Shown here: positions 5,255-41,256 of the stretch, piece by piece
How the letters are laid out: each line of letters starts with the position of its first letter
Position numbering within the stretch: position 1 is the stretch's first letter
Source of the DNA: a virus
IMG/VR virus record: IMGVR_UViG_3300035698_021806
Location: 1-49,526 of that record
Length of the DNA: 49,526 bases
Strand: one strand, 5' to 3'
Program-made: the position numbers and the translations under genes
The notes under the pieces: generated by a model
Databases searched by the model: none
The model's input: only the letters and a program-made list of their open reading frames with translations
What the model was told of the DNA's origin: nothing

Positions 5255-6007
5255 TTATCTTATTTCTGGCATTTGTTCTACATTTCCACCCGATGTTTTC
5301 ATCCCCGTCCACAAATCCACACCAGGATCTACTTGTTGGTTAACCATTTGATCTTCAAACACTAACTTCCCCGCAGTTTGAGGCATAAAAAATTCCGAAC
5401 TAACTGTCTTTTCTTGTCCCTTATCATCCTGAGTTGTATAAGCAACAGCCCCACCCATACTTTTCTCTACAAAAATAGGATATTTCTTACCTTTTGTAAA
5501 TTTTAGATTTTGTTGATCTGCTTTATGTTGTTGAGGTAATTCAGGATCATAAACTTCCCAACGTACCGGGGCTCCTCCTATTGAACTAATGGTAGGTTTT
5601 AATGGGATGTTGGGAACATTGGTTGAAGCAGGAGATGGTATGGTAGATTGTAATTGCTGTAAAAGCTGCGGATTTGATTCGAGCAGCTTAGCTGCAACAA
5701 CTAATGGAGATTCTTCAACATCCTCTCCCTCAATAACTGGTCCGTCGTCAAAACGAAACTTCTTGTTTTTTATAACAATGCCATCATCAGCTTCACGATA
5801 ACTCAACTTTTTCCTTTCAAACTCATAAATCTCAACATCAGTTACGAGAATATTGCGTCTCGCTAATTGGGACATAATTTTTCCAGCAAGGACTTCTAAC
5901 TCAATGTCCTCATAGGCTTTTCCCACTCTAACCTTTTTCTCGTGAGTTTCTTCTACCCAGCCTTCTTCATCTTTTTCTCTATAGTGAAGAACTATTTCGT
6001 AACCCAT
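5255..6007 (-). CDS. hypothetical protein, 250 aa
   Basis: Starts MGYEIVLHYREKDEEGW, an alpha/beta N-terminal domain (about residues 1-75), then a Pro/Gln-rich linker (around residues 95-140), then a C-terminal beta-rich part with VRWEVYDPELPQQ and KKYPIFVEKSMGGAVAYTTQ. The last part resembles a small OB/SH3-like fold found in phage proteins. It overlaps the upstream 161-aa gene by 16 bp. No function assigned. Confidence 0.6.
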   Translation of the reverse strand: MGYEIVLHYREKDEEGWVEETHEKKVRVGKAYEDIELEVLAGKIMSQLARRNILVTDVEIYEFERKKLSYREADDGIVIKNKKFRFDDGPVIEGEDVEESPLVVAAKLLESNPQLLQQLQSTIPSPASTNVPNIPLKPTISSIGGAPVRWEVYDPELPQQHKADQQNLKFTKGKKYPIFVEKSMGGAVAYTTQDDKGQEKTVSSEFFMPQTAGKLVFEDQMVNQQVDPGVDLWTGMKTSGGNVEQMPEIR

Positions 6008-6477
6008 TGTTCCTCCTTACTTGCAGCCACCATAGGTAAGGCGAGGTTACATTCAACCGACAACCCACCTTCCTCTCCCAATAATTGACAAACTTGTTGC
6101 AAAAGTAAATCTCGCAACTCTGAAGATTCCAGTTTTGCCGTTTGTTTATATACTTGAACAATCTTATCCACATTTCCTGTTGCAAGTGTATCCTCGCGCA
6201 ACTTCATTCTTTCTTCAGCAAAACACCCAAGTATATCAAGTGTGTCAAGGTGATTGCGTTGGAAATCGGATGCAAGATGCCACAATAGATCGACATCTTT
6301 GACATTTTTTGCTAAATCCAAAAAATAAGCATTGTTAAACAGAAGCCGATTTATGTATATCTCAATATCATCCACATCTCTTACAAGTGGTAGCTCGCGC
6401 AACTTCAAATCGTAATAATTAAACAAACTTAGCGAACACGAGTCTTTTTTATCTTTTTCCAACCAATAATTACCCAT
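5992..6477 (-). CDS. hypothetical helical protein, 161 aa
   Basis: Largely alpha-helical, Leu-rich protein that overlaps the following gene by 16 bp. No signal peptide, membrane segment or catalytic motif is visible. Probably part of the same operon as the SAM methyltransferase-like gene upstream. Confidence 0.55.
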   Translation of the reverse strand: MGNYWLEKDKKDSCSLSLFNYYDLKLRELPLVRDVDDIEIYINRLLFNNAYFLDLAKNVKDVDLLWHLASDFQRNHLDTLDILGCFAEERMKLREDTLATGNVDKIVQVYKQTAKLESSELRDLLLQQVCQLLGEEGGLSVECNLALPMVAASKEEQWVTK

Positions 6478-6505
6478 CTTTTTACCTCCAGCTTATTAGA
6501 GTGTC

Positions 6506-7129
6506 TTATTTCATAACTATACCCATTTTGTATCTTGTATCATAGAAAACCGGTTTTCTATTTGCAATCTTACAAAATGTGTCAAATGCTTCTTGTGCTG
6601 GTTCGTGTTTAGAAAGATAATCTACTGCAATTAAGCCATTTGGTTTAAGATTTTCCCAAAGTAAATCTAAGCAATTACGCATGTCATCCAAAGAACTTTC
6701 ATAATGAACTAAAGCTAATTCACACGAAAATAGACTGTCTATAAACGCTATATCCATAACTTTTCCATAATAAAAATTAAAAATTCCTTTATAATTCCTT
6801 TTAACATTAAGTTTAGCTAAACGCAGAGAATACGGCTCAGAATCATTCTCAAACGCAAGAAAATTCTCAACCGATTTACAACTTGTTAAAAAACAAGAAC
6901 TAAGAAAGCCAGATCCAAACCCAATTTCAATTAAATTTTTAGGCTTAACGTATTTCCCCAAGTGATAATAGAAGGGAATAAAAAGAGGATCTTGATACCA
7001 CGAACTTTTTCTAACAGATTCATTACTAATTGCTAGACGCCCCAATAACGTACGTGAAGACACAGCCTCCTTTTTTAAGGCTGTATCTATATGGATTTTG
7101 AGACTTTCTAATTCGTGATCGGAATTCAT
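6506..7129 (-). CDS. class I SAM-dependent methyltransferase-like protein
   Basis: 207 residues from the ATG at 7127-7129 (a TTG eight codons upstream has no ribosome binding site). Motif I is LIEIGFGSGFLSS, motif post-I ends in LAFENDSEPY, a motif IV-like strand reads CELALVHYESSLDD and motif VI is LKPNGLIAVDYL. This order is that of Methyltransf_24-type Rossmann enzymes, which act on small molecules, sugars or proteins. No target-recognition domain is present, so the substrate is unknown. It begins 23 bp downstream of a strong terminator, so its transcription depends on readthrough of, or control by, the structured RNA region described at 7152-7490. Confidence 0.65.
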   Translation of the reverse strand: MNSDHELESLKIHIDTALKKEAVSSRTLLGRLAISNESVRKSSWYQDPLFIPFYYHLGKYVKPKNLIEIGFGSGFLSSCFLTSCKSVENFLAFENDSEPYSLRLAKLNVKRNYKGIFNFYYGKVMDIAFIDSLFSCELALVHYESSLDDMRNCLDLLWENLKPNGLIAVDYLSKHEPAQEAFDTFCKIANRKPVFYDTRYKMGIVMK

Positions 7130-9612: not shown

Positions 9613-11289
9613 CTAATTTTCTGCATCTTTGGAAGATGGATTTTCATCTTCCGGCTCGGGCCTAGATTCATCCTCGTCTTCGGGATTAACTTCAGGCTTG
9701 TCGGGGCCTTCATCCTTTTGATAGTCGGACTTAAAATATTTTTTAGCTTTTTCACCGAGCTTCCCATCCGGAGCTTTCGAGGGAATTGCAGCCGAAAGGA
9801 CTTCCGCTTCATTCCTAATCTTTTTAAGAAGGTCTCCATGTTTTTTCTCGCTTATTTGAGTGATTGCTAATGTTTTAGGATTGAATTCCACGCAAAAGCT
9901 AAATCTACTTTTTCCATGTCGATGTTTGACGACAAATATTCTGGCGATGTTTGCTTTCTTTTCCTCGATCATTTGGTTGATAGACCAACAACCATCAAGA
10001 GGACGAATTTGAGCAAATGAATCTCCAAGATTGTTATCATCTATCACGGGATTGCCTTGAAGTGCAAAACGATCTTTGTCGTTCAAAAGGTCTCTAGCAC
10101 CACGATTGGGTTGCATTGCCGTAAACATGCACACTTTTTCCTCAGTACAAAAACCACGCAAATCTCGAACAATCCTGTATCGGGACTCATGCGTTGGCAT
10201 ATTGGGATAATCCTTCATCTCGCCAATGTAATCTACAACAATTAAGTCGGGCTTAAATCCCCTGAGATTGACTTGCTGAATATATGCTCGCAACATGTCA
10301 ACGTCAAACATTCCAGCAGAAAATTGCTTAATGATAAGCATTCGAGGATCTTTAATATCTTTGACATGTTCTTCTATTGCTGCTTTAATTAAATCTTTAT
10401 GTTTTTCTAATTCATTAATGTCTACGTCGGCTAATTGAGCATCAAAACGTTCGGCTATTTTATCCTCGTCCATTTCTAAAGAAATATATAATACTCGTTT
10501 TGCAAGTTTTACAATATTTAATAATGATGCTTTTACAAGTGTAAGACTTTTTCCACTACCTGAAAGTCCCATCCATGAATATAATTCCCCTCGACTCGGA
10601 CCACCACCAAGTAAAGCACTATCAAGAGCCTCGAACCCAGTAGTAAAAACTTCACGCGCTTCTTCGTTCTCTTCTTTCCTTTTATACCGTTCCTCAAAAC
10701 TCTGAAAATACTCCAACCCGCTCTCAAAGTTACGATCTACCGATAATGCTTCATGCAACAACTCTCTAATTTTCGTCCATGTTTCATCACTTTCTGGATT
10801 ATTTTTTACCTGACTCAAACACTTATTGAATGCAACTTTCAACGCCTGTAATTTGGCAAAATTGGTGATTTTGTCAAGCAGATAATCTCTATTATCTAAA
10901 TTAGGAACATAATGATTGTAAACACTTGCCAATTCCCCAAGATAATGAAATCTTACTTCATTAGACTTTGACTCAATTACCTCTTTGACTTCTTGGGTTA
11001 AAAATGTTTTAGTTGGCATAACCCTATAACTTTTAAAATGTTCAAACAACACTTTGCAAATTAACTTATGAACCTCATCTGTAAAATAACTTGATTCAAC
11101 CAGTCCCATACCCTGTATCAAAAAATTCTTGTCATTTACAAGCATCCCTAAAACATAACGCTGAAATTCTTCATCCCATTTATAACCATCACCTACATCA
11201 TCATCATCTGGGTCTATAAGTGTAGCCAAAGTCGCTTGTTCTTCTACAGTTAATTCATCCATATCGCTTAAACCGCTTGTGTCGCTCAT
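9613..11289 (-). CDS. DnaB/gp41-type replicative DNA helicase
   Basis: Hexameric 5'-3' helicase of the replisome. An N-terminal DnaB_N-like helical domain (about residues 40-150) is followed by the RecA-like core: Walker A GLSGSGKS at 241-248, ISLEMDEDKIAERF, Walker B PDLIVVDYIGEM, and FTAMQPNRGARD, which resembles the Q/R-finger motif (usually SQLNRxxE). The C-terminus (from ~515) is an acidic Glu/Asp/Pro-rich tail that could contact SSB or primase. 558 residues, longer than T4 gp41 (475), mostly through the acidic ends. No primase gene is in the window. Confidence 0.92.
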   Translation of the reverse strand: MSDTSGLSDMDELTVEEQATLATLIDPDDDDVGDGYKWDEEFQRYVLGMLVNDKNFLIQGMGLVESSYFTDEVHKLICKVLFEHFKSYRVMPTKTFLTQEVKEVIESKSNEVRFHYLGELASVYNHYVPNLDNRDYLLDKITNFAKLQALKVAFNKCLSQVKNNPESDETWTKIRELLHEALSVDRNFESGLEYFQSFEERYKRKEENEEAREVFTTGFEALDSALLGGGPSRGELYSWMGLSGSGKSLTLVKASLLNIVKLAKRVLYISLEMDEDKIAERFDAQLADVDINELEKHKDLIKAAIEEHVKDIKDPRMLIIKQFSAGMFDVDMLRAYIQQVNLRGFKPDLIVVDYIGEMKDYPNMPTHESRYRIVRDLRGFCTEEKVCMFTAMQPNRGARDLLNDKDRFALQGNPVIDDNNLGDSFAQIRPLDGCWSINQMIEEKKANIARIFVVKHRHGKSRFSFCVEFNPKTLAITQISEKKHGDLLKKIRNEAEVLSAAIPSKAPDGKLGEKAKKYFKSDYQKDEGPDKPEVNPEDEDESRPEPEDENPSSKDAEN

Positions 11290-11351
11290 TCATTCTCCAA
11301 TTTCTAAATTAACCATACGAATAACTGCAAGGTTATTTGTTGTGGGACATT

Positions 11352-11921
11352 TTACACTTCCCAAACCCTTTCATTATCTAAAAGCATACCAAGCACAAAC
11401 CCATGTCCCATTTTCTTATCAGGACAATCCAAGACCTCTTGATATGACATATTTAAATCGTGATGATCGTAAGAATCAAAATCAAATAAGGTAATATCCC
11501 CAGCAGCATCATAAAGTTCTTTTAATTTCTTAAACGCATCAGTATGCTCCACCGTTCGTGCATAAAGAGAGCAATAAATTTTCTTTCTTGCTTCGACATA
11601 ACCTAATTTTTCACCATCCCACAAAGAATATGTGGGCTTGGTTCCTTTCCCCATTGGATAACGATAAGCACGATTTTGCATCCAACCCCATTCAGCCCAC
11701 GTCCAATAACTACTCGTTGGCTCTCCATCCTCTATGTGATCTGCATATACTTTTGAAAACTGCCATCCGTTTTCAACATTCTTCGCTTCATATCCGTCAT
11801 AAAGCTCTACTGGACCTAGAAAAAAAGGACTAAGACCACAACTCCAGTTCTTAGACCGAGAGGTTGTGTCAATAGCCCCAGAAATTCGCGTTCTCATATT
11901 GCAAAAATTAATCACTCGCAC
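11352..11921 (-). CDS. conserved-looking phage protein, 189 aa
   Basis: Aromatic-rich protein (KNWSCGLSPFFLGPVELYDG, WTWAEWGWMQNRAYRYPMG) with a globular pattern and no signal or membrane segment. The first half has the GPxxLYDGxxAxNxEN pattern that I associate with an uncharacterised phage/bacterial family (DUF6939-like), tentatively. Function unknown; it sits between the helicase and the sigma-like gene. Confidence 0.6.
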   Translation of the reverse strand: MRVINFCNMRTRISGAIDTTSRSKNWSCGLSPFFLGPVELYDGYEAKNVENGWQFSKVYADHIEDGEPTSSYWTWAEWGWMQNRAYRYPMGKGTKPTYSLWDGEKLGYVEARKKIYCSLYARTVEHTDAFKKLKELYDAAGDITLFDFDSYDHHDLNMSYQEVLDCPDKKMGHGFVLGMLLDNERVWEV

Positions 11922-19471: not shown

Positions 19472-19479
19472 GTATTTAG
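19472..19479 (-). promoter_or_regulatory. CTAAATAC box before a tagged gene
   Basis: On the minus strand the order is CTAAATAC, 3 nt, ATG. The same box precedes the genes at 26111, 27256 and 27305. The TAAATA core matches the T4 late promoter TATAAATA. Confidence 0.4.
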
Positions 19480-20363
19480 TCCAATATGTTTATTACTCCG
19501 TAAAACTTACTGCCTGTTTGTGGTAAATTTTTGCCAAATCTAACAAGATATCCAGAGCGGAAAGGAGAATCGGGAAAAATATTTGAAGTGTCACACAACG
19601 GAACGTATGGACAATATTGATATCCTGCTGTGTAATACCATAGTGGTTTTTCTTGTTTATCTATTTCTTTTCCTCGCAATCCAACTAAAATTTTATTTTT
19701 AGGAAATTGTGCATCCACATAAACATCCTGAGTATCTTTATGCGATCCTGCATAAAATATTTCTTCTTTGGAATTTAATTCTGTCTCTAGTAATCTTTCT
19801 GCTAATTCAAGAGAAGTGACGATCCAATTACCCTTACCCAGGAGAGTTTTTTTGTCAATTATATTACTAATTAAGTGTATTTGACTTTCTAGTGAGTTGC
19901 CTTCGCCTTCGCAATTACCTCTAGTTGCCGCATTATTGATTAAATCATGCAGCACACTTCTTGTAATTTCATTTGCAATTATAGATGCAAATTCTTCATC
20001 ATCATATTCATTGTCGTTTACATGTAGGGTTTTTAATTTAACAGCATGAGCTGCCACTTCTTCATTACGCAACAACACATCAGATTTTTTAGTTTCCTCA
20101 TCATAATTAAATTTACAATAAAAAACCTCGGCAATGGGACCGATCATCGGTTGTACAGAAACTAAATTTTTAATTATCCATTTAGAATAAACTAGAAATG
20201 CTACATGTTCAGTTCTTTTTGATTGATCTTCACGAAACTTATTGAATAGAGATTGGTTTTCAATAATCAGGGCGAGGTCATGTTTTTCTTGTTCACAACC
20301 TTTAATATCGTAGACTTGACTCCACTTTTCCAACGCACCGACACTTAATTCTTTTTTGTTCAT
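19476..20363 (-). CDS. gp23-type major capsid protein paralog, shortened
   Basis: 295 residues against about 500 for T4-type major capsid proteins. The order of conserved blocks is kept: LVSVQPMIGPIAEVFYCKF (residues 67-85, cf. the VQPMxGPTGLIFAM block), a central region ending in ASIIANEITRSVLHDLINNA, GNWIVTSLELAERL, VYVDAQFPKNKILVGLRG, and YQYCPYVPL with SGYLVRFGKNL at the end. The N-terminal prohead-cleaved part is missing. A GGAG ribosome binding site precedes the ATG. A second paralog is at 40333-41256. These may be vertex (gp24-like), minor capsid or decoy subunits; the genuine major capsid gene is presumably elsewhere. Confidence 0.7.
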   Translation of the reverse strand: MNKKELSVGALEKWSQVYDIKGCEQEKHDLALIIENQSLFNKFREDQSKRTEHVAFLVYSKWIIKNLVSVQPMIGPIAEVFYCKFNYDEETKKSDVLLRNEEVAAHAVKLKTLHVNDNEYDDEEFASIIANEITRSVLHDLINNAATRGNCEGEGNSLESQIHLISNIIDKKTLLGKGNWIVTSLELAERLLETELNSKEEIFYAGSHKDTQDVYVDAQFPKNKILVGLRGKEIDKQEKPLWYYTAGYQYCPYVPLCDTSNIFPDSPFRSGYLVRFGKNLPQTGSKFYGVINILD

Positions 20364-33004: not shown

Positions 33005-33484
33005 ATGGATCATTCATTTCATTTGTGGTCGTATTGTGAATTAAGAAACTCTCGAAGAATATTTCTATTTTCTTTGTTCTTTCTGTTTTACGATATTCGA
33101 GAATATCAACCCAATTTCAGAAAAATAAAAGTTGGATGGAACAAAAGAACTGTTTGGTTTCCTTATACAATTTTTGTAATAAATAGAATTACTGGATCTC
33201 TTTATGTTTGTTTCTCAGAAGAAACAATACACTGGAGATTTTCAAAAGTTTATCACTATAGCTCTCTTGTTAGTCAAATTGGAGGAATGAGAATATGTTT
33301 GGGTTACCAACCAAAATTCTGGTGGTCAACAAATAATATAATAAGTCATTTTTGGTGGACTTCTTTTTCAAATCAATATGAATCATCTAAATCTCCTTAT
33401 CGCACAATAAACCGTATGAAAATCAAAAAACCTCTTTCTCTTTGGAACTTTTTATTTTTGTGCGCATTTAAACCTTATGTATAA
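33005..33484 (+). CDS. divergent fifth member of the E2-like family
   Basis: 159 residues. Aligns in block order with the four paralogs downstream: VWFPYTIFVI (cf. AFPYVQYYLV), VYHYSSLVSQIGGMRICLGY (cf. FLPNIFRTGNTCMPF), FWWTSFSNQ (cf. FWQSSFF) and LSLWNF at the end. The GG-M-R-I-C-L core resembles the active-site Cys region of ubiquitin E2s (G-x-[IV]-C-L), but the E2 catalytic Asn position holds Ser. N-terminal residues differ and contain a hydrophobic segment. Function unknown. Confidence 0.55.
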   Translation: MDHSFHLWSYCELRNSRRIFLFSLFFLFYDIREYQPNFRKIKVGWNKRTVWFPYTIFVINRITGSLYVCFSEETIHWRFSKVYHYSSLVSQIGGMRICLGYQPKFWWSTNNIISHFWWTSFSNQYESSKSPYRTINRMKIKKPLSLWNFLFLCAFKPYV

Positions 33485-33501
33485 AAAATATTGGATTGAC
33501 G

Positions 33502-34134
33502 ATGAATAAACCACACATTTTGGCACAACGTAAATTGAGAAAAGTATTTGAAGGAGAACTCAGCAAATGGGGACGCGATAACTGCTGGAATAGTCAGTTC
33601 AACATTTCTATTACAGAATCTCAACCTGTAATACGCACAATTAAAATAATATACAAAAAATTTGCCCCGGTCGTAAACTTTTTAAGTTTCAATGGCAATT
33701 GTGTTAAAACTGTTATTGAAAAAAGAACGCTTGCTTTTCCCTATGTGCAATATTATTTGGTGTCAGAAGGCGCAAGAACTATGCCTTTAATAACATGGTC
33801 TTACACGCCGCTTTCATCTTCTGAGGATAAAATATCTATTCCTTTTCTTCCCAACATATTTCGCACTGGAAACACTTGTATGCCTTTTGTTCCAGCAGTT
33901 GACGGAGCAAAAGAAGTATGTGCTAAATTTTGGCAGTCATCATTTTTTGTTAACCCCGCAGATGATTGGGAATATAAACGACGTTTGCCGAAGTCTCCAT
34001 TGAAATCATTTGTAAATTGGGAAAAGATGACAAAAAGATGCAAATCACCTAGCTTCATGTGTGAATTATTAGAAAAAATAGACATGAAGCAAAAGTTTCA
34101 AAAAAGAACCATATGGGAACTTGGGAATGGATGA
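33502..34134 (+). CDS. E2-like protein 1 (Asn-x7-Cys family)
   Basis: 210 residues. Opens with ILAQRKLRKVFEG, then FPYVQYY (80-86), and IPFLPNIFRTGNTCMPF (113-129) in which Asn118 and Cys126 are separated by seven residues, exactly as in E2 enzymes (HPNIxxxGxxC). Ends with FWQSSFF and SPLKSFVNWEKM, also conserved in the paralogs. The gene overlaps the next by 8 bp. Prokaryotic E2 (PRTRC-B-like) folds are the best guess; conjugation activity has not been shown for this family and is inferred. Confidence 0.6.
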   Translation: MNKPHILAQRKLRKVFEGELSKWGRDNCWNSQFNISITESQPVIRTIKIIYKKFAPVVNFLSFNGNCVKTVIEKRTLAFPYVQYYLVSEGARTMPLITWSYTPLSSSEDKISIPFLPNIFRTGNTCMPFVPAVDGAKEVCAKFWQSSFFVNPADDWEYKRRLPKSPLKSFVNWEKMTKRCKSPSFMCELLEKIDMKQKFQKRTIWELGNG

Positions 34135-34709
34135 ACCACGCATTTTAGCACAACGCAAATTGAGAAATATACATGATGGTTTGGCAACTTCTTGGGGATA
34201 TGATGATCCTTTTGATCCTCTTGGAACTGATCCACTTGAAATTTCTATTATAGAAACCCAACCCGCCATACATACGATTCGGACCAGGCGAGAGTAATGT
34301 CGAAAAAAGAACACTCGCCTTTCCCTATATGCAATATTATTTGTTGTCAAGAGCTTTAACTCCAACATGTAAAAGGAGTTTGGTAACATGGTCAAGCAAA
34401 CCACTTTCATCTTTTTGTGATAAATTATTAATTCCTTTACTTCCGAATGTGGATAGGAATGCTAGTGTTTGTATGAATTCTGCTGTAGATGCCCTACATG
34501 TGTGTGTTAATTTTTGGCAAACAACATTTACTAATAGAATAGACGAAGGTTGGCCTTATAAAATAAATTTACCTCACACCTCATTAAAATCATTTGAAAA
34601 TTGGGAAAGAATGACAAAAGAATGTGATTCTCCTTATTTTATGTGTGGGTTGTTAGAAAAAATGCACATACAGAAAAAAACTATATGGACATTTCAAAAA
34701 TGGCATTAG
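34127..34709 (+). pseudogene. E2-like protein 2, frameshifted
   Basis: Starts MDEPRILAQRKLRNIHDG and runs to a TAA at about 34296 after TQPAIHTIR; the continuation (VEKRTLAFPYMQYYLLS, LPNVDRNASVCMNS) is in another frame and open to 34709. One-base indel near 34276-34295 restores the family alignment. Asn-x7-Cys is retained. Either a pseudogene, programmed frameshift or base-call error; I see no slippery site. Confidence 0.6.
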
Positions 34710-35299
34710 ACATAAATTCGCGCATCTTAATTCGACGCAAATTGAGAACTGTGTTTGAAGGTATAGCAGAAGAATTTGGAATGCATTCTCGCTTTTCTTC
34801 AAATTACAAACATCCTTTATTTATTATAGAATCTTCCCCTATGATTCGCACTGTTTGTTTTTGGAGTGTGGCACATGGCGGATATGAAAAAACAGCCTTT
34901 ACACTTGCCTTTCCTTATATGCAATATTATCATTTTAGAGGCGTCCCTCATGTGTCGTGGTCTTGCGGGCCGATAAAAGATAAAAATAGTTTAATTACCA
35001 TTCCTTTACTTCCTAACGTGTATGATGATGGGTCTGTTTGTATGCGTGTGCGTATAAACAAAGAAGAAGAAGAAGAAGCAAAAGGCGTATGTGCTGAATT
35101 TTGGAAACGTCCATTTACCCCCGACTCAGATGATTGGAGTTATAAAGTATTTTTACCTTTATCCCGATTAATTTCATTTGATTATTGGCAGAAATTAACA
35201 GAGGAACACAATTCTCCTGATTTTATGTTGAATTATATCAAAAATTCAGATAAACCCCAATCTGTTGAAAAATTGCTTTATGGATATAGGGTCATATAA
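34700..35299 (+). CDS. E2-like protein 3 (Asn-x7-Cys family)
   Basis: 199 residues from the ATG that overlaps the previous stop. LIRRKLRTVFEG, FPYMQYYHFRG and IPLLPNVYDDGSVCMRV (Asn and Cys separated by seven), then CAEFWKRPF and LISFDYWQKL. Of the group, it is closest to the E2 active-site pattern (N-V-Y-D-D-G-S-V-C). A Glu run (EEEEEA) follows the Cys. Likely function as for paralog 1. Confidence 0.62.
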   Translation: MALDINSRILIRRKLRTVFEGIAEEFGMHSRFSSNYKHPLFIIESSPMIRTVCFWSVAHGGYEKTAFTLAFPYMQYYHFRGVPHVSWSCGPIKDKNSLITIPLLPNVYDDGSVCMRVRINKEEEEEAKGVCAEFWKRPFTPDSDDWSYKVFLPLSRLISFDYWQKLTEEHNSPDFMLNYIKNSDKPQSVEKLLYGYRVI

Positions 35300-35301
35300 T
35301 T

Positions 35302-35883
35302 ATGCATAAACCACATATAATATCACGGCGAAAATTAAGAAAAGTATTTAAGGGATCAATGCTTGATTGGGGTGTGCGTCGTTGGGAACCTTTTTATGAT
35401 TGGTCTGTGGTAATTGTAGAATCTAATCCCATGATACGCACTCTTAAATTTGAAACTATTGAAGAATATAAAACAAAAACAACAAAAGTTCTTACTTTCC
35501 CTTATGTGCAATATTATGCATTAAAAAGAAAACAACAGTGTTTTTTGTATTTAACATGGACCCATAAGCCGCTTTTGTCTCCGGAAGATAAAGTAAAGAT
35601 TCCTTTGCTTACCAACATATATGCAAATGGGATGGTTTGTATGCCATACGAATCATCCCATCAAGTAGAAGATTTGTATGTGGATTTTTGGAACACTCCA
35701 TTTACACCACATTGGAATATAACAAGCCCGCAGCGTTTAAAACAGTCTAGATTAAAATCACTCAGTGTATGGGAAACATTGACCAAACAACAAAAAACAC
35801 CAGATTTTATGCTTGATTTGGTAGAAGGATTAAGAAAAAGCGATATCTTTTGCGAATTGATAAAAACCCCTCATTTTCAATGA
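35302..35883 (+). CDS. E2-like protein 4 (Asn-x7-Cys family)
   Basis: 193 residues. IISRRKLRKVFKG, FPYVQYYALKR, IPLLTNIYANGMVCMPY (Asn and Cys separated by seven), DFWNTPFTP and LSVWETL. Last in the tandem; its TGA overlaps the 2H phosphoesterase ATG as ATGA, so the two are translated together and are likely to act in one process. Confidence 0.62.
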   Translation: MHKPHIISRRKLRKVFKGSMLDWGVRRWEPFYDWSVVIVESNPMIRTLKFETIEEYKTKTTKVLTFPYVQYYALKRKQQCFLYLTWTHKPLLSPEDKVKIPLLTNIYANGMVCMPYESSHQVEDLYVDFWNTPFTPHWNITSPQRLKQSRLKSLSVWETLTKQQKTPDFMLDLVEGLRKSDIFCELIKTPHFQ

Positions 35884-36296
35884 ATAAATTGTATAAATCA
35901 ACTGGAGTTCTGAAGTATTTTAGAAATTCCAGATTGGTAGTTGAAATCGACAAAGAATTAGTAGCTTATTACAGATCTTTAATTCCCAAATGGAAGTCTG
36001 TAAAATCACAAATGTACCCTCCGCACATTACAGTCGTGCGAGAGGGAAAAGAAAAACCTTTAATAATGGATGCGTGGAGAAAGTATAATGGAGAAATAAT
36101 AGAATTCACCTACAGTCCCATGATTCAAGAAGGAGAAATCTATTACTGGCTAAACGTTTTTTCCACTAGATTAGAGGAAATTCGAAGCGAACTAGGATTG
36201 CCAATAATAAGCGAATATACATTACCTCCCGAAGGCTTTATTAAGTGTTTTCATACAACGATTGGGAATTCTAAACCAATAACCTCTTCGCCGTAA
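35880..36296 (+). CDS. 2H phosphoesterase
   Basis: 138 residues with the two His-x-Thr motifs of LigT/2H phosphoesterases: PPHITVV (H49, T51) and CFHTTIGN (H125, T127), about 75 residues apart, as in cyclic phosphodiesterases. T4 and other phages use a 2H enzyme (Acb1) to destroy cyclic-oligonucleotide signals of CBASS defence; others repair tRNA ends. Here the fold and phage context are compatible with an anti-CBASS role, but the substrate is unknown. Confidence 0.72.
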   Translation: MNKLYKSTGVLKYFRNSRLVVEIDKELVAYYRSLIPKWKSVKSQMYPPHITVVREGKEKPLIMDAWRKYNGEIIEFTYSPMIQEGEIYYWLNVFSTRLEEIRSELGLPIISEYTLPPEGFIKCFHTTIGNSKPITSSP

Positions 36297-39611: not shown

Positions 39612-39808
39612 AAGAAGTAAAAATTGTGAACGACGATACAAATAATAGATTTTTTAAAATCACTGTAAGGAATGTCCCGCCGTTGTACAAAGAAGTAAAA
39701 ATTGTTTACGATGACACAACTATTGATCTTGGGATTTTAGATGCTAATGAGCAAAAAGAATTAGCTAATCATTTAAAAGAAGTTGTGGAAGATTTAGAGG
39801 ACCGGTAG
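39608..39808 (+). CDS. hypothetical protein, 66 aa
   Basis: TTG start with a strong AAAGGAGG site; TTG overlaps the previous stop (TTGA). Two halves share KEVKIVxDDT, an internal repeat (residues 2-10 and 28-36). The stop codon lies inside the tRNA-Phe gene (10-bp overlap), so tRNA processing would cut the message at its very end. Confidence 0.55.
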   Translation: MKEVKIVNDDTNNRFFKITVRNVPPLYKEVKIVYDDTTIDLGILDANEQKELANHLKEVVEDLEDR

Positions 39809-39870
39809 CTGAGGCAGATTAGCGAGACGCTGAAAACGTCTAGACGCAGGTGCGATACCTGCTCGGTCCA
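39799..39870 (+). tRNA. tRNA-Phe (GAA)
   Basis: Acceptor stem of seven pairs (one G-U), anticodon stem AGACG/CGTCT with loop CTGAAAA, T stem GCAGG/CCTGC with loop TGCGATA. CCA is not encoded. The D-arm is adequate. Overlaps the preceding CDS by 10 bp. Confidence 0.85.
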
Positions 39871-39878
39871 CTTGATAT

Positions 39879-39967
39879 AGAGGCGAGGCAAATACTGGTT
39901 CGTTGCGAATGATTGCTAATCATTTCCGGTTTTAAACCCGGTGCTGGTCCAATTCCAGTCGCCTCTG
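39879..39967 (+). tRNA. tRNA-Ser (GCT)
   Basis: Acceptor AGAGGCG/CGCCTCT, D stem GCAA/TTGC, anticodon loop TTGCTAA, long variable arm (CCGG/CCGG around TTTTAAA), T stem with loop TCCAATT. Reads AGU and AGC. Type II structure supports serine identity; no encoded CCA. Confidence 0.88.
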
Positions 39968-39978
39968 CTGATTTAAAT

Positions 39979-40065
39979 AGAGGGGCAAGCCAATTGGCGG
40001 TGGCCGCGGATTTGAAATTCGTTAGGAGTTAATGACTCGTACTGGTTCGACTCCAGTTCCCTCTG
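39979..40065 (+). tRNA. tRNA-Ser (TGA)
   Basis: Acceptor AGAGGGG/TCCCTCT, anticodon loop TTTGAAA (anticodon TGA), long variable arm with GAGT/ACTC, T loop TTCGACT. Reads UCA and by wobble other UCN codons. Confidence 0.85.
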
Positions 40066-40092
40066 CTTTTTTGATGAGAATTTCATTGGAAT

Positions 40093-40180
40093 GAAGGTGA
40101 GGCAAACACTGGTTCGTTGCGATAGCTTGGAAAGCTATTCCGTCCTTGTGGCGGTGCAAGTTCGATTCTTGTCGCCTTCG
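40093..40180 (+). tRNA. tRNA-Ser (GGA)
   Basis: Acceptor GAAGGTG/CGCCTTC, anticodon stem ATAGC/GCTAT with loop TTGGAAA, long variable arm, T stem with loop TTCGATT. Reads UCC and UCU. Confidence 0.87.
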
Positions 40181-40197
40181 CTTAAAAAGTAATGAAT

Positions 40198-40283
40198 AGC
40201 GGATATGGCGGTAGGCTCGCCAAGCATTTTCGAAAAATGTACCCTTGAAATATGGGGCGGGGATTCGAGTTCCTCATCCGCTG
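40198..40283 (+). tRNA. tRNA-Ser (CGA)
   Basis: Acceptor AGCGGAT/ATCCGCT, D stem GGCG/CGCC, anticodon loop TTCGAAA (CGA), variable arm, T loop TTCGAGT. Reads UCG. Its 3' 43 nt are duplicated at 41699-41743. Confidence 0.87.
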
Positions 40284-40285
40284 CT
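40241..40285 (+). repeat. 45-bp direct repeat, copy 1 (tRNA-Ser 3' end)
   Basis: Identical to 41699-41743. It spans the variable arm, T arm and acceptor 3' strand of tRNA-Ser(CGA), the usual crossover target of tRNA-integrating elements. The copies flank the capsid-paralog cassette. Confidence 0.85.
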
Positions 40286-40289
40286 ACAA

Positions 40290-40318
40290 AGCCCTTTTTC
40301 GCAAAGCGAAAAAGGGCT
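40290..40318 (+). terminator. hairpin after the tRNA cluster
   Basis: Perfect 12-bp stem 40291-40302 with 40306-40317 of the CCCTTTTTCGC type that also occurs at 41747, 42328 and, slightly changed, at 41265. No T tract follows, so its terminator activity is weaker than that of the others. Confidence 0.6.
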
Positions 40319-40332
40319 TCTATATTATTGGT

Positions 40333-41256
40333 ATGAATAATGAAGAAATACTTAATGAAAAAACAAAGTTGTTAGAAAAATGGAATTCTATTTTTGATAT
40401 TAAAGATAGAGTTGAAGAAGAATACGCATTAGAGTTAGCTTTAATTATAGAAAACCAATCGTTATTTAATCATTTTTTTGAGGAAAAACAAGTAAAAGAG
40501 AGAAATCTCGACATAGTGTTTGAAACATTTTCTAAACTGATAGCACGAAAATGGGTTTCTATTCAAGCTATGTGGGGGCCTGCTGGTAAAATACTTTTCA
40601 ACAAACTTAACTTCATACCTACAGAAAATAAGTCATACCAAAAACCAGAGCTTGTTCTTATTGAAGAGGAAGTCGCTGTAAAAACAAGAAAGTTAAAATC
40701 ATTATGGTTTGATGAGTTTGATGATTTGAGCAATGAAGAGATATCATCTAGAATAGCAGATGAAATTACACGAGAGATCTCAACAGATTTATTGTTAAAT
40801 GCTGGGAGCATTAAAACTTGTAAATCCGATGCAGACCTAGAAGAATTATATGGTATGATAACAGCGACATCTGATATCATTTCTAGAAAAACAATGATGT
40901 TGGGAGCTAATTGGATTTTAACATCTCCCGAATTGGCAGAAAAAATATCACCATTTATTTTCAATAAAGATGAAACAGAATTAGAAAAAGAAATCAGAAG
41001 ATTTGGAATTCTCAACCACATTTGGACGATATATGTGGATACTGAATTTCCTAAAGACAAATTACTTTTTGGGGCAAGAGGAGAGAATGATTATTACAAG
41101 GCGGGATATACTTATTGTCCGTATGTAGCGCTATCAGAATCTCCTGATCTTAGAACACCTGATTGGTGTCCAAGGCGTGGATTTTTAATGCGATACGGTA
41201 AAAAAATGTTATCGCCTTTTGGAAGTAATTTTTATGCCGTATTGAAAATAGTATAA
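40333..41256 (+). CDS. gp23-type capsid protein paralog 2, shortened
   Basis: 307 residues from the ATG at 40333; a longer frame would run through the tRNA. The blocks match the paralog at 19476: EYALELALIIENQSLFNHFF, WVSIQAMWGPAGKILFNKLN (with Ala for Pro), GANWILTSPELAEKI, IYVDTEFPKDKLLFGARG, YTYCPYVALSES and RGFLMRYGKKM. The start is at CTATATTATTGGTATG, very like the sequence at the tail-fibre start. It shares roughly a third of residues with the first copy. Its place between tRNA-fragment repeats suggests mobility or later acquisition. Confidence 0.68.
   Translation: MNNEEILNEKTKLLEKWNSIFDIKDRVEEEYALELALIIENQSLFNHFFEEKQVKERNLDIVFETFSKLIARKWVSIQAMWGPAGKILFNKLNFIPTENKSYQKPELVLIEEEVAVKTRKLKSLWFDEFDDLSNEEISSRIADEITREISTDLLLNAGSIKTCKSDADLEELYGMITATSDIISRKTMMLGANWILTSPELAEKISPFIFNKDETELEKEIRRFGILNHIWTIYVDTEFPKDKLLFGARGENDYYKAGYTYCPYVALSESPDLRTPDWCPRRGFLMRYGKKMLSPFGSNFYAVLKIV

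Follow-up and report, generated by a model that had tools for sequence, protein, structure and literature searches.

Why does a phage carry five consecutive copies of what looks like a ubiquitin-E2 gene, and what would these copies do? The genes lie at positions 33005-35883 of IMG/VR record IMGVR_UViG_3300035698_021806, a stretch of virus DNA of 49,526 nt that was analyzed whole and that we call the window. We lean, with modest confidence, toward the explanation that the array arose when an E2-like gene of the Prok-E2_D/PRTRC-B type was multiplied in tandem in one lineage, and that this gene is part of, or descends from, a phage-encoded module for conjugation of a ubiquitin-like protein (Ubl).

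Its gene content marks the window as a piece of the genome of a large T4-like phage. It encodes UvsX, a gp32-like SSB, a DnaB helicase, a polymerase B, UvsW, and a gp23-type head protein whose closest match found (38%) is in the uncultured phage LR756511.1 (595 kb). Two ORFs, at 19476-20363 and 40252-41256, match one and the same gp23-type head protein of that phage (31% and 38%), and the window possibly has two head protein genes. Five tRNA genes are clustered at 39799-40284, four of them for tRNA-Ser with differing anticodons. Upstream of the array, 0.7 kb away, is a NUDIX gene.

The array consists of five homologous ORFs on the plus strand that are consecutive and close-set or overlapping. 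They are given here together with the ORF that follows them.

33005-33484, + strand: p5, divergent fifth E2-like paralog, 159 aa; Cys98 present, Ser at the Asn position
33502-34134, + strand: p1, E2-like, 210 aa; motif LPNIFRTGNTCM at 33847-33882, Cys codon 33877-33879
34127-34297, + strand: p2, N half; MDEPRILAQRKLRNI...IETQPAIHTIRTRRE, TAA at its end, frame broken relative to the C half
34299-34709, + strand: p2, C half, in the other frame; motif LPNVDRNASVCM at 34440-34475, Cys codon 34470-34472
34700-35299, + strand: p3, E2-like, 199 aa, the AlphaFold query; motif LPNVYDDGSVCM at 35009-35044, Cys codon 35039-35041
35302-35883, + strand: p4, E2-like, 193 aa; motif LTNIYANGMVCM at 35608-35643, Cys codon 35638-35640
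35880-36296, + strand: 2H-phosphoesterase-like ORF that overlaps p4 at its end; PHIT and FHTT motifs

Translation of p1 and p3 probably starts at the ATGs at 33502 and 34700; the p1 frame is open from a TTG at 33496. Three copies (p1, p3, and p4) are intact, with mutual identities of 35-43%, and p2 is split by a frameshift. When p4 was used as a query against the window, it recovered p1, p3, and both halves of p2, the N half at E 3e-4 and with one internal stop. A programmed frameshift in p2 was rejected as first choice, as ~53 nt of p1 are absent from p2 and there is no fitting -1 slippery site. The first-pass annotation had described five tandem paralogous genes. The tandem paralogs were confirmed by the p4 search and by the outside-only HMM described below, and all five are homologous, but the second is not an intact gene, its halves being in different frames. 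The dN/dS of p1 versus the other copies was ~0.2-0.6, figures that are only rough because dS is near 1 or above; they indicate, roughly, purifying selection between copies.

The ORF at 35880-36296 matched phrog_12204, a family of unknown function, at E 2.5e-18, and 2H-SAK at E 0.05. There was no match for it in the PDB, Acb1 included, and its identification as Acb1 is unsupported. It is perhaps on the same transcript as the array, and its link to the array is putative.

Asn and Cys are kept at the spacing of E2 enzymes in four of the five copies. These four have the motif L-x-N-[IV]-x6-C-M (sequences above), and the N-x7-C spacing is exactly that of UBE2D, with HMMER aligning the family profile to UBE2D PNINSNGSICL. 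The pattern L.N[IV]x6C[ML] occurred four times among the window's 455 stop-to-stop ORFs, each time in the array, and in 200 residue shuffles of the ORFs its mean was 0.065 per window, with a maximum of 2; the earlier observation of this spacing in four paralogs therefore holds. The fifth gene had been called divergent. It is a homolog (E 6e-4) that retains the Cys, but in the alignment it has Ser where Asn is expected (LVSQIGGMRICL). Among 24 aligned relatives the Cys is invariant and the Asn nearly so, and some relatives have LSN...CC and LYN...CR motifs. A His downstream of the Cys is not conserved in the array: p1 has none, and in the other copies it is at differing positions.

The array proteins are homologous to E2-like proteins of other phages and of Patescibacteria over ~130 residues, extending beyond the motif. 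We scanned IMG/VR with a degenerate (IUPAC) DNA pattern of the motif that did not select for partner genes and obtained ten contigs, each encoding a protein of the array's E2-like kind. Because these relatives had been found by motif, we built an HMM from outside proteins alone (14 proteins of other contigs, with the window sequences left out) and searched the 455 window ORFs with it. The five array ORFs were the top five (E-values of 3e-13 for p4, 4.8e-11 for p1, 6e-11 for the p2 C half, 8e-10 for p3, and 6e-4 for p5), and the next ORF had an E-value of 0.1. After the motif columns were removed from this HMM, four array ORFs were still the top four (E 5e-6, 1e-4, 8e-4, and 0.03); p5 was at E 8e-4 and p1 dropped to E 0.18. 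Comparison of the window profile with the outside profile by hhalign gave a probability of 98 and E 7e-14 over 130 columns.

In bacterial genomes, the motif pattern led to PRTRC-like E2s on Pseudanabaena plasmids and in Bacteroidota, and to a protein of 712 aa encoded in a Vogelbacteria MAG. BLASTP against this Vogelbacteria protein gave E 5e-8 for p3 and E 5e-6 for p4, both as single comparisons. Other searches gave no relatives. No true relative turned up when p1, p4, and four relatives were run by tblastn against 50,697 phage records; the match in S-B64/S-H35 (E 8) is to an unrelated protein and arose by chance. Unlike the motif pattern, searches of IMG/VR for related loci gave none with either p4 or A2 as the query, and no E2-like relative was found in LR756511.1, LR756508.1, GAP32, or WecB-sharing contigs. 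Taken at the level of sequence, these results support the array ORFs as relatives of PRTRC-B/Prok-E2_D-like proteins.

The sequence profiles and the structural comparison pointed in different directions with respect to the fold. An AlphaFold (AF2) model of p3 made with 24 sequences had a pLDDT of 79.8 and a pTM of 0.77; with the four window sequences alone the model was poor (pLDDT 37). The p3 model has a strand meander, the motif loop, and three helices, in an order that appears compatible with E2, and no clear first helix. Foldseek comparison of this model with the PDB gave 298 weak matches, and there was no E2 among the best 50, all with a probability of 0.10 or less. In profile searches of PDB sequences, E2s made up 42 of the 45 matches listed for the family profile (E 0.07-1.5) and 33 of the 34 matches listed in another search, in both cases aligned on the catalytic Cys, with no single E-value significant. 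A search of BFVD with the p3 model found uncharacterized phage proteins (best E 7e-8). An E2 fold for p3 is a candidate assignment, with sequence profiles for it and Foldseek against it. The E2-like identity proposed in the first-pass annotation is thus upheld as far as homology to the Prok-E2_D/PRTRC-B type and the PDB profiles go, but not by the fold comparison of the p3 model, and the refutation check that this annotation had set for itself was not cleanly passed.

Relatives of the array genes in other phages are found next to genes for the partners of an E2. A ThiF/E1-like gene was present in all ten contigs found by motif, 0.3-6.2 kb from the E2-like gene. All ten also have a JAB-like gene with an HxH motif, a count to be read with the fact that the HMM was trained on most of these sequences; the Pfam Prok-JAB match of the JAB-like gene of L024 was only E 0.006. 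Three of the ten (L024, L023, and L027) encode a protein that, from its size, place, and sequence, is probably a Ubl. An association of phage relatives with Ubl genes had been suggested as something to look for, and these three contigs are candidate cases of it. In the operon of L024, the gene for a Prok-E2_D-positive protein is accompanied by genes for a Ubl-like, a small, a ThiF, and a JAB-like protein. E2-like genes are recurrently multiple in phage contigs, with three copies in G011, three in G017, and two in G018. In Patescibacteria, the Vogelbacteria E2-like gene is followed downstream by JAB and then E1, and a second genome has the E2-JAB-E1 unit twice; motif matches were rare there (3 of 380 genomes).

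Several other features were seen at or near such modules. In three phage contigs, the E2/JAB/E1 module is directly adjoined by a reverse-transcriptase-like gene, recognized by eye from motifs only:

L025, 879-1820: reverse-transcriptase-like gene beside the module
L042, 7503-8603: reverse-transcriptase-like gene beside the module
L043, 8928-9977: reverse-transcriptase-like gene beside the module

In L053, another ThiF-like gene is followed by a gene for a protein with HPNADLYSGLLCLP (5383-6698), perhaps a second E1-E2 pair in that phage. In the phage LR756511.1, ThiF and JAB-like genes are neighbors and no E2-like gene is recognizable; at 9620-11521 of the stretch L130 from this phage, E1-like, JAB-like, and JAB-N-like proteins are encoded close together.

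The window itself has none of these partners. A ThiF search, custom E1 and JAB HMMs, and a Ubl search found no E1, JAB, or Ubl in the whole 49.5 kb, that is, within 33 kb on one flank of the array and 13.6 kb on the other, in agreement with the initial reading of the locus and unlike every relative. This absence applies to the window as a fragment, not to a whole genome.

We believe that the array gene belongs to, or derives from, a phage Ubl-conjugation module. The copies would accept a Ubl as a thioester on the Cys from an E1, and charged copies would pass it to host or phage proteins. The source of E1 and Ubl that we rank best is elsewhere in the phage genome, and otherwise the host. Several E2-like copies with different surfaces might reach different targets and so replace E3 ligases, and p2 and p5 may be decaying or redeployed copies. 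We counted for this explanation the outside HMM ranking, the E1 in ten of ten contigs, the recurrent multi-copy E2-like genes, the Vogelbacteria BLASTP matches, the hhalign result, the PDB profile matches to E2s, the ThiF and JAB-like genes of LR756511.1, and dN/dS. Against it we counted the absence of partners from the window, the negative Foldseek result, the missed Prok-E2_D cut-off, the unconserved downstream His, the frameshifted copy, the Asn-less copy, and the lack of a recognizable E2 in LR756511.1. Since Asn and Cys are kept in four copies and the relatives are linked to E1, a working E2 would be the likeliest ancestral and present function of most copies. One copy is frameshifted and one is without the Asn; therefore, catalysis is not needed in all copies. 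A bolder version, which we regard as possible and hold only tentatively, is that large phages carry a dedicated Ubl module with an E2 array that works without E3 ligases, every copy directing the tag to a host protein of its own; the phage would use it to gain control of the host or to disarm it.

The copies might instead be decoys or inhibitors that bind the E1 or Ubl of a host system (CBASS type II, Bil, or PRTRC-like) and block or divert conjugation, the tandem arrangement giving breadth. E2-like genes without E1, JAB, or Ubl in the whole window would fit this, as would five diverged copies of which some are decayed and one has lost the Asn. The neighborhood fits as well, with a 2H-phosphoesterase-like gene next to the array and the NUDIX gene upstream; T4 uses the 2H-phosphoesterase fold against CBASS. 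However, the 2H ORF had no PDB match to Acb1 or anything else, there was no PADLOC match to E2, Bil, or Cap2, and the catalytic Asn and Cys, which a decoy could dispense with, are retained in four copies. Close relatives are in full E1-JAB operons, some of them in cellular genomes, and that the closest ones belong to complete operons for conjugation points to an enzyme more than to a decoy. Inhibition would require binding without catalysis, for which we found no positive support, and we consider it unlikely, placing it ahead of the two alternatives that follow.

Ranked next, and improbable in our view, is a binding or structural protein with an E2-derived or E2-reminiscent fold, in which the Asn/Cys motif is a structural loop. 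The Foldseek result, the loss of the Asn in p5, and the LSN...CC and LYN...CR motifs of some relatives are in line with this, but the near-invariance of the Asn, the invariance of the Cys among the 24 aligned relatives, and the E1 in every one of the ten contigs argue against it. Least probable, we think, is that the phage E2s take a Ubl from a host E1/Ubl system (PRTRC-like, plasmid or chromosomal) and redirect it to new targets. The array is E2-only, and cellular genomes do contain E2-JAB-E1 systems of this kind (the three Patescibacteria and the Pseudanabaena plasmids), but such systems are rare, and the E1 may simply be outside the fragment.

Conjugation of Ubls in bacteria is known mainly as a cellular defense against phages and from operons predicted for bacteria, plasmids, and ICEs (PMC10097602, PMC1779556). 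A text search of a 2021 overview of jumbo phages (PMC7824862) found no E2-like, ThiF, JAB, or Ub-like entries, and among open-licence papers we found nothing specific on phage E2 modules; an earlier description elsewhere is possible. The E1-E2-JAB modules in ten phage contigs and the fivefold E2-like gene would mean, if the explanation is true, that phages themselves tag proteins, and they suggest a protein-tagging system, so far little described, that certain phages encode and amplify in copy number.

Among known systems, the array is most readily compared with Prok-E2_D (PF14460)/PRTRC system protein B (TIGR03737), with which it shares an L-P-N-[IV]-x6-C-[ML] stretch without the His of HPN. 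Matches to Prok-E2_D were below its curated cut-off of 25 bits for p4 (14.8 bits, E 0.024) and p3 (12.3 bits, E 0.14), both aligned on the motif stretch; p1 and p2 had no match, and no window protein was above the cut-off. The phage relative L024 was above it, at 33.3 bits. Operon type 6d (Iyer et al. 2006, PMC1779556) combines a Ubl, JAB, E1-like, and E2-like protein with an alpha-helical protein, and its E2-like proteins have an absolutely conserved His downstream of the Cys. The window differs from type 6d and PRTRC in having no neighboring E1, JAB, or Ubl, in not conserving the downstream His, and in having five phage copies in a row.

The E2-JAB-E1 operons of Patescibacteria (Vogelbacteria L083; G124 and G062) gave the best pairwise sequence match found for the array. 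Their E2-like proteins share with it an FPY strand, the LPN..C motif, and an FW.S.F helix, but the protein is far longer (712 aa in L083), has operon partners, and is present in one or two copies. The Cap2 of CBASS type II and Bil are similar in that E2-like cysteine chemistry is tied to phage-host conflict (PMC10097602), but their gene make-up differs, and p1, p3, and p4 matched no PADLOC family, Cap2 and Bil E2 models included, at E 0.1 or better. With eukaryotic E2s (UBE2D and others), the Asn-x7-Cys stretch aligns at the catalytic Cys and the modeled order of strand, loop, and helix seems compatible, but there is no significant E-value, no E2 among the 50 best Foldseek matches, no HPN His, and no clear first helix. 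The E2-like kind of conjugation is already known from bacteria and mobile elements (PMC1779556), and the array would be an E2-expanded phage branch of it.
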